From IMG/VR virus record IMGVR_UViG_3300040815_001002, positions 1-48,112 of that record: DNA of 48,112 nucleotides; one strand, 5' to 3'. Numbering within the stretch: the first letter of the stretch is position 1; every line of letters begins with the position of its first letter. The position numbers were made by a program, and so were the translations under genes. The DNA is from a virus. This document shows, one piece after another, positions 10,801 through 42,386 of the stretch. Below the pieces are notes generated by a model. The model did not search any database, was not told where the DNA came from, and saw only the letters and a program-made list of their open reading frames with translations.

Positions 10801-12419
10801 ATTTTTGGTTGACCTGCATTGTCGTAACCTAGTAGATCGTAATAATAACTACTAAATCCAAAATCACTTTTTATACTAAAATCAGTTATAAAAGTATCAT
10901 ATGCTTCGTTATCATATCCACCTATATTTCCTATTCTATCTAATGCTAATAAAGGTTCAACAACACCTGTAATTTTGCCATCTTCAGATAATGACAATCC
11001 AGGCGGAAGTTCACCGTCACCGTTTGCAATAAAATATTCTAACTCATCTCCTGCTGGTAGATCGCTATCTATTGCAGATAACTGAAAATCTACAAGCGCA
11101 TTATCTAAAATATAAAGTGTATTATTAGATCCTACTTGTAGTCTTCCTTTATTTGTGATCCATACTGGATCGTCAGGCCCTACAACATTTATAATAAATG
11201 TTCTGTCGTCTATAATGCCGTTATATTTTGCTCGCAACACAAATTGATATGATGTATCTCGTTCTACTTCAAACGGAGTACCAACTAAATTATTGCCTTC
11301 GATTCTAGTTCCTGACGGAAGATTGCCTGATAGTAATTCTACACTAGGATAAATGTCATCAGTTACAGGTAGTGCAAATATAACAGGTCTTCGTTCAGCT
11401 AAATTAGCAACTACTGTACCGCTACGAACAGACCATAACGATATAATATCCGCTGTGCCTATTCCTGCTGTTCTTTGTTGTTTAGATTGAGGACCTATTA
11501 CATAAGGATAAGCTGGTTCAACCAACCCGTTATCTTTAAATGTTAAAAAATATGCGTAAGTTCCGTTAGGATATTCTGGAGTAATACAATATCTACCGTT
11601 GTGTTCATCAAGTGTACTTAGAGTAGAAACGTATTCATAGTCTTCTACAAATGTACCAAGTGTAAAATTTCTTTCTTGATTATTAATTCTATAAGTATCT
11701 GTAATTTTATATCCGTTAGGTCTATGATCATCGTTATCCCTTAAACGGTAAGCAGACGGTGTTCTTATTGGTCTTGATAACGGCTCGAGTGGATCTTCAT
11801 ATCCAAAAGGTCCGTAAATAGGATAACCATCAAACGCATAACCTACAATTTTAGAATGTCCGTCTTGATGGCGCATAAAATCATTACCATAACTATTACT
11901 ACCATAGTATTCGTTTTTTTGGTATATTTTACGTTCTCTAGAATACACTGTTGGAACAAACGCACCAGTGACATATCTATATGCACCAGTTTCGTCTATA
12001 TAGCCACTTGCTAAATCACCTTTATAAACATCACTGAATACAGAAATGTCCCAGTTTAATTCATCCGGCGGCTTTGTTGCACTATTAAATAAAATATCAT
12101 TACTCTTTGATGTGTATATTAATACTCCATTAGTTGCAATACCTATCGGTCCCTGTTCTACATTTTGAGGATTAGTACTATTTCTGCCACCGCGATAATT
12201 AAATGTAAGATCGATAGTTTTAGTTTGTATGTATGTTCCTAACGCCCATCCAGATCTTTCCGAAACACCGTCATTATTTAAAGGATTACCTGCTTTTGCT
12301 GGATATGGATCTCCATCTGAAACAATTCTTATATTGTTTTCATCTGATGTGATAGTTGTACTACTAGGATATATTCCAGAGTTATTTACAATTCCTGTGT
12401 CTTTAGGATTAAAAGACAT
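7854..12419 (-). CDS. 1521-aa tail/adhesin protein with YHYH-like and Ig-like repeats
   Basis: Large virion protein. Residues about 190-300 (GYAFDGYPIYGPFGYEDP...) resemble the YHYH domain. Putative Ig-type (He_PIG-like) repeats are marked by LPSGTRIEG (about 366), LPPGLSLSEDGKITG (474), LPPGLTLNTGNGEIAG (650) and LPNGMRLNLDGDIIG (1103). No enzyme motif seen. Strong RBS AGGAGG 7 bases before ATG. First of the fibre genes downstream of the 12.4-28.2 kb block; probably host recognition or tail structure. Confidence 0.82.
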   Translation of the reverse strand: MSFNPKDTGIVNNSGIYPSSTTITSDENNIRIVSDGDPYPAKAGNPLNNDGVSERSGWALGTYIQTKTIDLTFNYRGGRNSTNPQNVEQGPIGIATNGVLIYTSKSNDILFNSATKPPDELNWDISVFSDVYKGDLASGYIDETGAYRYVTGAFVPTVYSRERKIYQKNEYYGSNSYGNDFMRHQDGHSKIVGYAFDGYPIYGPFGYEDPLEPLSRPIRTPSAYRLRDNDDHRPNGYKITDTYRINNQERNFTLGTFVEDYEYVSTLSTLDEHNGRYCITPEYPNGTYAYFLTFKDNGLVEPAYPYVIGPQSKQQRTAGIGTADIISLWSVRSGTVVANLAERRPVIFALPVTDDIYPSVELLSGNLPSGTRIEGNNLVGTPFEVERDTSYQFVLRAKYNGIIDDRTFIINVVGPDDPVWITNKGRLQVGSNNTLYILDNALVDFQLSAIDSDLPAGDELEYFIANGDGELPPGLSLSEDGKITGVVEPLLALDRIGNIGGYDNEAYDTFITDFSIKSDFGFSSYYYDLLGYDNAGQPKIPKKLNRYYSFAVTVTDGDSWVRREFIIYLVGDDYLRADNTIMQAADGVFTADNTHLRNPVWLTPSDLGFKRANNYVTLYTDIIESDTLAGFVFYELLDFNPDRTPSLLPPGLTLNTGNGEIAGRVPYQPAITNSYKFTLRATRFEADTGTVEVIGTFNEDTLIGRNNLKVAKLPQGLEDGVDDLESLRNQVIRINDKEYEIIKVDGSNSDYDLITLDRSVTPKIRLITSQSAVINDEIFFVNRLSETEKTRYLGRFLNFNAVEKYEIKDILPYLEYRIKMKDSSAILIEETSLNLKVGQEFILGDYAYYNGAIYQLSSTDLDLFGDPTRIHTVVSQQDDNGAIINDSEGNPVVDFNSSKWSFISNTSAELSETVNRNIFEQRLQMDFAMGALQRLSPQYQTNIYLTEVYPADPAQLWSLRMPSTANSRNNLLVKKYLKPTNLSFVIYRDNEDRVNITSNIEATPGLLRNINTGADISISIFKRDSFTKLIKVLEQDEIVDLPFTDKTFDIRIIGEIDSTIEFLTERDLGNIKANFVSTFKLNATTTVPDTNLIYRLISGRLPNGMRLNLDGDIIGKPRQYANNEGLGLTTFDNYSTVFDSLEPVSSTFDRDFVFTVEAKDRFGYSAVTKEFKITVVDDDKIRYSNIYVKPLLEPRQRQSFTNFVSNPKIFPNNKIYRPDDPEFGIQTTIKMLVYAGIETQDIANFVAATSLNHKRTNFKIGDFKMAEAKQPGTNEVIYEAIYLEVIDPSQPINGKARKSFTASTTETITTDSIQYDTKDDITNTGTGFQELPVYGRNTVKFVIPNGDDLIILTRDSNVTVDVDNNDFEIELRDGSDVEIELGITDSEPYRIRPKTNTIKADNTAIRASDFRDQKKYIVNIDNMRSRIQETGQDEREYLPLWMRTPQANTFPQELDYVTAIPVCFCKPGEGANIMLNIRNAITNNLFDQTKINFEFDRYIIDQTNNNSNEQYILFANYQYNV

Positions 12420-41637: not shown

Positions 41638-41651
41638 ATAACTTTTTTAAA

Positions 41652-41725
41652 ACTACACTATCTTTGACCCTTTCGAGGCCTCTGTCTCTGCAAAGACACC
41701 TTATTGCAGTAAGGCGTAGTGTAGT
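41652..41725 (-). ncRNA. Candidate structured RNA with complementary hairpin loops
   Basis: 74-base tRNA-sized element between the terminator and tRNA-Trp. A perfect 9-bp closing stem pairs 41717-41725 with 41652-41660. Inside are three hairpins: 41699-41714 (stem CCTTA/TAAGG, loop CTGCAA), the directly adjacent 41683-41698 (stem TGTCT/AGACA, loop TTGCAG) and 41666-41680 (stem GGCC/GGTC, 7-nt loop TCGAAAG). The first two loops are exact reverse complements, allowing a 6-bp kissing contact, an alternative duplex or dimerisation. No tRNA D-loop GG or T-loop; not a normal tRNA. Could be a degenerate tRNA or an analogue of the stable RNAs C/D in the T4 tRNA region. Confidence 0.6.
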
Positions 41726-41728
41726 CAT

Positions 41729-41764
41729 AAAAAAAGCCCCTAACCGAATTAACTGCTAGGGGCT
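41729..41764 (-). terminator. Rho-independent terminator
   Basis: Minus strand GCCCCTA-N13-TAGGGGC-like stem (41736-41764) followed by TTTTTTT (41735-41729). Ends transcription from the promoter at 41889-41917. Confidence 0.9.
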
Positions 41765-41794
41765 TATCTAAAATAACTTTATTAAAAAGTCACG

Positions 41795-41857
41795 TCAAGA
41801 CATACCCCAACTTAATGGCGGCCAACATGTAATATATGTTGTGTTAGTCTGTGACAT
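41795..41857 (-). CDS. 20-residue peptide in its own transcription unit
   Basis: ATG at 41855-41857 preceded by AAGGAACATTAAC; 20 codons, polar N-terminus (MSQTNTTYIT) then a Cys-Trp-Pro-Pro stretch and Trp-Gly, stop TGA. It lies alone between a consensus promoter and a strong terminator, giving an mRNA of about 150 bases. Could be a tiny membrane/inhibitory peptide, an attenuation leader, or fortuitous within an sRNA. Confidence 0.5.
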   Translation of the reverse strand: MSQTNTTYITCWPPLSWGMS

Positions 41858-41883: not shown

Positions 41884-41917
41884 TATTTATAATACACTCT
41901 TATTTATCGTTTGTCAA
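41884..41917 (-). promoter_or_regulatory. Overlapping sigma70 and late promoter
   Basis: TTGACA (41912-41917), 17-bp spacer, TATTAT (41889-41894). A perfect late box TATAAATA (41884-41891) overlaps the -10, and GATAAATA (41901-41908) lies in the spacer, so the unit could be read both early and late. Confidence 0.8.
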
Positions 41918-42029: not shown

Positions 42030-42386
42030 AGGTAAGCAGTTTCTAGTCCTGCTTAGGACCGCCATCATCCTGGGCACCATTTGCTCAGTTGTTTTACAAG
42101 GGGAACAAAACCCTTTATCCCGCTTTATCAGTGCGGTGCTGACTGCTATACAGTCTGCGTGATTAATATGATAGGGAGGATTGCAGTCTACCTCCAACAA
42201 CCTAGTAAGTATTATCATACGTTCGGTTGCGCCTAGTATCAAACAGTTACGTTCGAAATACACATCTTCGTGTCTCCACGCTCATGTGCTGCCACTACAG
42301 CTACTAGCCAAGTTATCGTCCTTACGAAACGACATTTCCTTGCACTATCTTTCCAAACCCCGTCGGGTTGAAAATTCTTAAAACTT
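42030..42386 (-). ncRNA. Long untranslated structured spacer between tRNA-Leu and tRNA-Glu
   Basis: About 357 bases with no convincing gene. Minus-strand hairpins in order: AACCC-GACG-GGGTT; a two-step CAAG...CTTG stem enclosing TCGT...ACGA; a CTAGTA/TACTAG helix enclosing GCTG...CAGC and CACAT-CGTG-GAGA-CACG-ATGTG (GNRA-type tetraloop); TATGATA/TATCATA enclosing GGAGG...CCTCC; GACTG-TATAG-CAGTC; AAGGG...CCCTT; and a final TAAGCAG...CTGCTTA stem just before tRNA-Glu. Not recognisable as tmRNA, RNase P or an intron. Could be one RNA or several degenerate tRNA-like elements. Confidence 0.5.

Follow-up and report, generated by a model that had tools for sequence, protein, structure and literature searches.

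A probable intervening-sequence-type RNA spacer and an apparent Trp-codon attenuator upstream of a tRNA-Trp gene in a viral genome fragment

The window, as the whole stretch of 48,112 nt analyzed here is called (IMG/VR record IMGVR_UViG_3300040815_001002), carries on its minus strand a tRNA operon preceded by a leader and by a structured RNA element. The element region lies near a clamp loader protein, typical of T4-like phages. In the direction of transcription, the features are:

41889..41917, minus strand: leader promoter TTGACA-17-TATTAT, 11/12 consensus positions
41795..41857, minus strand: leader ORF MSQTNTTYITCWPPLSWGMS*, 20 codons with Trp codons, AAGGA Shine-Dalgarno (SD) about 7 nt upstream
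41759..41808, minus strand: predicted antiterminator, formed by the GGGG region of the ORF and the terminator's left arm (-20.2 kcal/mol for the window sequence)
41729..41763, minus strand: intrinsic terminator and putative attenuator, GCCCCTAGC..GTTAGGGGC followed by T7 (leader fold)
41652..41725, minus strand: family I spacer RNA element, 74 nt (fold, covariance model R1, covariation)
41717..41725, minus strand: 5' arm of the outer stem P1, ACTACACTA (covariation)
41698..41715, minus strand: hairpin H1, GCCTTA-CTGCAA-TAAGGT, loop 41704-41709 (covariation)
41684..41697, minus strand: hairpin H2, GTCT-TTGCAG-AGAC, loop 41688-41693, complementary to the H1 loop
41666..41680, minus strand: hairpin H3, GGCCTCGAAAGGGTC, tetraloop GAAA, GCAA or GTAA in many relatives
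41652..41660, minus strand: 3' arm of P1, TAGTGTAGT (covariation)
41642..41648, minus strand: A-tract AAAAAAG, a predicted partner of the terminator U-tract that would extend P1
41564..41637, minus strand: tRNA-Trp (CCA), ARAGORN, Rfam 50.6 bits
41482..41558, minus strand: tRNA-Pro (TGG), next gene of the operon, ARAGORN and Rfam

Read 5' to 3' (41725-41652), the element consists of ACTACACTA, C, H1, H2, AGA, GGCCTCGAAAGGGTC, AAAGA and TAGTGTAGT. The initial annotation had described a 9-bp perfect stem closing three hairpins, of which the first two abut and carry exactly complementary 6-nt loops, CTGCAA and TTGCAG; all of this can be read directly on the minus strand. Its position between a terminator (41763-41736, U-tract 41735-41729) and tRNA-Trp (41637-41564) is also correct, as is the lack of tRNA identity: neither ARAGORN nor RF00005 finds a cloverleaf in the element. 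The terminator is present where it had been placed but is more than a landmark, as it belongs to a conserved Trp-codon leader. Rfam, searched at gathering and relaxed thresholds, has no family at the element and gives just weak chance matches to the leader. The RNAfold energy of the element, -24.0 kcal/mol (z = -2.6), is modest evidence when taken alone because 4 of 200 dinucleotide shuffles are equally stable; the covariation evidence for the fold is much stronger. RNAfold draws H2 with a 4-nt loop, and the homologues fit a 4-bp stem with a 6-nt loop instead.

The covariance model R1, at a threshold of 56.8 bits, identifies 43 sources (42 related viral loci and the window), and the 22-nt loop core is matched in 57 stretches of IMG/VR DNA. 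Since the core search requires the loops, it was repeated with patterns that fix only the surroundings: either the tmRNA ends, or the terminator U-tract and the downstream A-tract. A near relative (L001) has two base differences from the element, with pairing kept at both. In an alignment of 35 distinct homologues, pairing is kept in 97.0% of cells, and both partners have changed at 14 of the 30 pairs. The covariation score of 0.308 falls to 0.159 in column shuffles and to no more than 0.069 with slid partners. Most of the covariation is carried by P1 (both-sided changes at 5 of 9 pairs) and H1 (4 of 6 pairs), and compensating changes are found in the outer stem, in all three hairpins and at the last loop-loop pair; e.g., the H2 arms appear in homologues as GTCT/AGAC, GTT/AAC, GCG/CGC and GTG/CAC. 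It is these compensating changes that identify the element as a genuine structured RNA, as had been proposed. Short variants of 60-61 nt (L008 and L143) score about 21-22 bits with R1, keep P1, and retain CTGC/GCAG, as a hairpin, despite the loss of the long form. The identity of the element core is 95-100% in most copies, vs 66-91% for the leader or the tRNA. Searches of isolate phage genomes return no significant match to the element or to the Trp leader, and the exact core pattern has 0 matches in GTDB cellular genomes. The tmRNA-flank pattern has 11 matches in cellular genomes, in unrelated bacteria, and none of them matches R1. An artifact of the U-tract, considered as an explanation of the element, is ruled out because the element also occurs in tmRNA contexts that lack this tract.

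The loop complementarity, for which a check across relatives had been suggested, is preserved by compensating changes at the sixth pair: CTGCA/TGCAG is invariant in every R1 match of at least 56.8 bits, and none of these matches breaks the loop pairing. One of the six loop-loop pairs varies (A-U, C-G, U-A, U-G) and five are nearly invariant; where a loop has changed, its partner has changed too, as in CTGCAC/GTGCAG (L257), CTGCAT/GTGCAG (L309) and CTGCAT/ATGCAG (L352). When the loop-loop helix is forced as a simple hairpin, the cost is only 0.5-3.5 kcal/mol (six examples), so that a switch, a pseudoknot and a contact between element molecules are all possible. A full 6-bp intramolecular kiss with both stems intact looks strained, in our judgement, because H1 and H2 are joined without a linker. 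Two copies are predicted to cofold at -63.5 kcal/mol, vs -48.0 kcal/mol for two monomers, a difference inflated by self-complementarity over the full length.

The core of the element recurs in contigs of T4-like phages, where it forms the intervening sequence (IVS) of permuted tmRNA genes (RF04321, RF01849). About half of the relatives have CTCCACCAAA on one side and TTTGATGGGG on the other, sequences that form the ends of a circularly permuted tmRNA gene; element-bearing tmRNA loci (L083, L091, L094, L095 and L104; also L257, L270, L295 and L309) score 100-113 bits with RF04321, or 83-107 bits in divergent cases, and ARAGORN reads in them tag peptides such as ANDNFVSSDYALAA. Neighboring proteins are again of kinds typical of T4-like phages, presumably helicase-like, UvsX-like and gp32-like, names that we read from their sequences. 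In the permuted two-piece tmRNA, the same core connects the acceptor piece, at its CCA end, to the 5' end of the coding piece; by contrast, the window copy precedes tRNA-Trp and has no tmRNA around it, and neither ARAGORN nor Rfam finds a tmRNA match in the 48-kb window. The remaining relatives occupy terminator-to-tRNA-Trp spacers or, in L084 and L106, precede tRNA-Cys. With the loop-blind patterns, the element is found in 15 of 105 distinct tmRNA IVSs among the matches listed, and also in 18 spacers (70-74 nt) that separate a terminator from a tRNA; nearly all IVSs among the listed tmRNA matches, whatever their core, are bounded by complementary arms of the type AGYACA...TGTRYT. Many relatives lack the element at the same spot before the tRNA. 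A tmRNA match is present in 7 of the 36 whole records searched: one (L121/G034) is a tmRNA locus with the element as its own IVS, and the six others, with the element in a tRNA context, have a tmRNA IVS that is of another type or unmatched by the model. Neither the covarying core nor its occurrence in tRNA spacers is captured by the Rfam tmRNA models RF04321 and RF01849 or described in the literature searched.

Stable RNAs C and D of T4 are non-tRNA RNAs in the tRNA cluster of a T4-like phage, and the element had been proposed as a possible counterpart or a new class. The likeness to RNAs C and D is one of cluster position. The element is bound to a tRNA/tmRNA context and has no fixed gene of its own, as it is found either as a tmRNA IVS or as a spacer before tRNA-Trp or tRNA-Cys and is absent from many relatives, so the idea of a stand-alone gene is not supported. 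Sequence comparison indicates instead that the element is homologous to the IVSs of permuted phage tmRNAs. It is most likely an IVS-type structured spacer in a tRNA operon, which would be excised during tRNA/tmRNA maturation.

The same stem ends enclose a second element, of 58-59 nt, that is unrelated to family I. It occurs as a 59-nt spacer at the pre-tRNA-Trp spot (L013, 3475-3533; L160; L203), as the IVS of a permuted tmRNA (L375, 1622-1676), and before tRNA-Ser (L184, 3515-3572; L190, L193, L009 and others), and a compensating change in its hairpin, from TGCTT..AAGCA to TGCAT..ATGCA, is seen by eye. A scan for stem ends finds the P1 ends AAGCACACT...AGTGTGTTTT around several other cores, in tmRNA as well as tRNA contexts, including tRNA-Leu. 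Because several cores share these ends and contexts, their common property is that of a stem-bounded IVS-like spacer, not a particular core. Alongside IVS homology and compensating changes in the stems and at the last loop pair, the sequences show interchange with a second spacer family. Two further arrangements were noted. In some relatives, as in L048 (3534-3598), a different 65-nt piece that could encode MTDSEYWRWMKSQVE lies between the terminator and tRNA-Trp; in L093 (about 11300-11430), the element and AGGGGCTTTTTTTATG with it follow another, different terminator, as if moved by recombination at the terminator.

In most contexts P1 is predicted to be lengthened by flanks that depend on the context: CCAAA/TTTG and the acceptor stem in tmRNAs, the U-tract and A-tract before tRNA-Trp, and ATATTA/TAATAT in L408. 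Extension by the element's own flanks averages -11.7 kcal/mol, vs -6.7 kcal/mol with flanks swapped between contexts; swapped flanks were used because shuffled flanks also pair fairly well owing to their A/U content, making that test uninformative. In some pre-tRNA-Ser contexts the extension is weak, 2-6 bp. In read-through transcripts, P1, lengthened to about 16-24 bp, may serve as a processing handle, a role suggested by the long helix adjoining the RNase P site: the extended helix would be cut by an endonuclease such as RNase III, RNase P would generate the 5' end of the tRNA, and the compact core of H1, H2 and H3 would be removed as a folded by-product, its invariant complementary loops perhaps keeping it in a single fold by way of a pseudoknot or kissing contact. 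Given the weak pre-tRNA-Ser extension and the pairing of A/U-rich shuffles, the RNase III step is tentative.

The leader upstream of the element folds at -38 kcal/mol in full (z = -4.7), and predicted folds of full leaders contain hairpin 1:2, a central hairpin and the terminator. With a ribosome placed at the Trp codon (12 nt masked from that codon), the left arm of the terminator is predicted to pair with the ORF in 68/68 leaders, giving a 2:3 antiterminator that excludes the intrinsic terminator. A Trp codon is present in each of 78 distinct leaders, always at most 11 codons from the stop; Trp makes up 5.8% of leader residues, vs 1.0% in window proteins. The first tRNA after the leader terminator is tRNA-Trp in 68 of 70 cases, the two exceptions being a contig that ends early and a doubtful ARAGORN call. 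In L093, changes in the terminator are accompanied by compensating ones in its pairing segment of the ORF (by eye). Since loci chosen by the leader pattern are biased, the counts were redone on loci fetched by an unrelated neighboring phosphoesterase. In this set, a terminator and Trp mini-ORF are found at 25 of 26 tRNA-Trp genes, and an upstream terminator at 3 of 141 other tRNAs; an SD and mini-ORF with TGG is alone a weak signature, present at 40 of the 141, and what sets the tRNA-Trp genes apart is the terminator together with the conserved Trp position.

Taken together, these sequence features make the leader an apparent case of ribosome-mediated, trpL-type attenuation of a phage tRNA-Trp gene. 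Like the trpL and his attenuators, it has an ORF with cognate codons, 1:2, 2:3 and 3:4 hairpins, a stop codon near region 2 and an intrinsic terminator; unlike them, it would control a phage tRNA-Trp rather than a biosynthetic operon. The his leader shows the ribosome-mediated mechanism, and Pro-Pro codons relieve attenuation there (PMC11805395). A shortage of charged tRNA-Trp would stall the ribosome at the Trp codon, so that the antiterminator forms and tRNA-Trp is made; with an ample supply, transcription of tRNA-Trp would be attenuated. Pro-Pro codons after the Trp codon could cause an additional stall. None of the Rfam leader families reaches its cut-off in the window, and literature searches on the attenuation of phage tRNA genes and on structure in tmRNA IVSs yielded no description of either. 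This attenuator of a phage tRNA gene is unusually clear and, apparently, not previously described.

Cys or Pro codons in the leaders have no strict correspondence to the Cys and Pro tRNAs of the operon. Cys is strongly enriched in the peptides of the 70 leaders (5.7% vs 0.65% in window proteins), and tRNA-Cys is often in the same operon. In L084 and L106, an ORF MKLITENFYSWCFMHVLGSLPYEYMRNEGQM, with tandem Trp-Cys codons, lies upstream of the element, followed by tRNA-Cys and likely tRNA-Trp; here the terminator sequence GGCCCTC is a potential partner of GAGGGTC, and the arrangement is perhaps a second kind of tRNA attenuator.

The whole reading, a tmRNA-IVS-type spacer removed under the direction of P1 and adjoined by a trpL-type attenuator, is in our estimate probable, though by no means assured. 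It counts against it that only 1/6 loop-loop pairs varies. So does the conservation of the core, far above that of the leader and the tRNA: a throw-away spacer need not be so conserved, and this favors either a function in trans or recent exchange. The former would make the element an independent small RNA, released by tRNA/tmRNA processing and acting through kissing-loop dimerization or protein binding. Conservation exceeding that of the surroundings, tRNA included, invariant CTGCA/TGCAG loops with a compensated sixth pair, and the cofold energies, inflated as they are, fit such an RNA; yet the element has no promoter or terminator of its own, the same spot is empty or filled by a different spacer in many relatives, and the six contigs with a tRNA-context element and a tmRNA match carry other IVSs or none that the model recognizes. 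We regard this alternative as rather unlikely.

Another proposal is a mobile or recombining cassette with P1 as terminal inverted repeats, tolerated only where tRNA processing removes it. The P1 ends common to unrelated cores, the AGGGGCTTTTTTTATG-element of L093 behind another terminator, and (T)TATG on both sides of several copies are consistent with it, but it is improbable: P1 varies by compensating changes, as an RNA would, there is no transposase or consistent target duplication, and TATG may merely be the end of the terminator. Still less likely is that the element is part of the attenuator, a second regulatory structure for tRNA-Trp transcription. In tRNA contexts it usually comes right after the attenuator U-tract, with which it is predicted to pair, but by the time it is transcribed termination has already been decided, and it is absent from most leaders and is also found in tmRNA genes without such a leader. 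A decayed tRNA or chance fold, to which the tRNA size and the moderate z = -2.6 might have pointed, is refuted by covariation and further contradicted by the tmRNA IVS homology and the lack of a tRNA match.

The IVSs that interrupt split tmRNA genes are regarded as waste. One of them has here a conserved, covarying fold that recurs before ordinary tRNA genes, which makes a role in processing directly testable. With the leader, a phage tRNA gene would respond to how much of its product is available, which is relevant to the question of when phages express tRNAs and why, e.g., after host tRNA depletion or cleavage. A bolder combination, to which we give a small chance, is that in T4-like marine phages a family of interchangeable stem-bounded cassettes moves between tmRNA IVSs and tRNA spacers and, once freed by tRNA processing, acts in trans as kissing-loop RNAs, in an operon that senses tRNA-Trp depletion during infection via the leader peptide, the phage thus making its own tRNA-Trp only once the host supply runs out.

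Another structured RNA of T4-like marine phages, the manA RNA (RF01745; PMC2864571), is unrelated to the element in sequence and structure. The window contains at 42165-42373 (minus strand), between tRNA-Leu and tRNA-Glu, a match to RF01745 of 49.6 bits, under the cut-off of 55.2, and in L395 a manA-like sequence follows a stem-bounded spacer (by eye).
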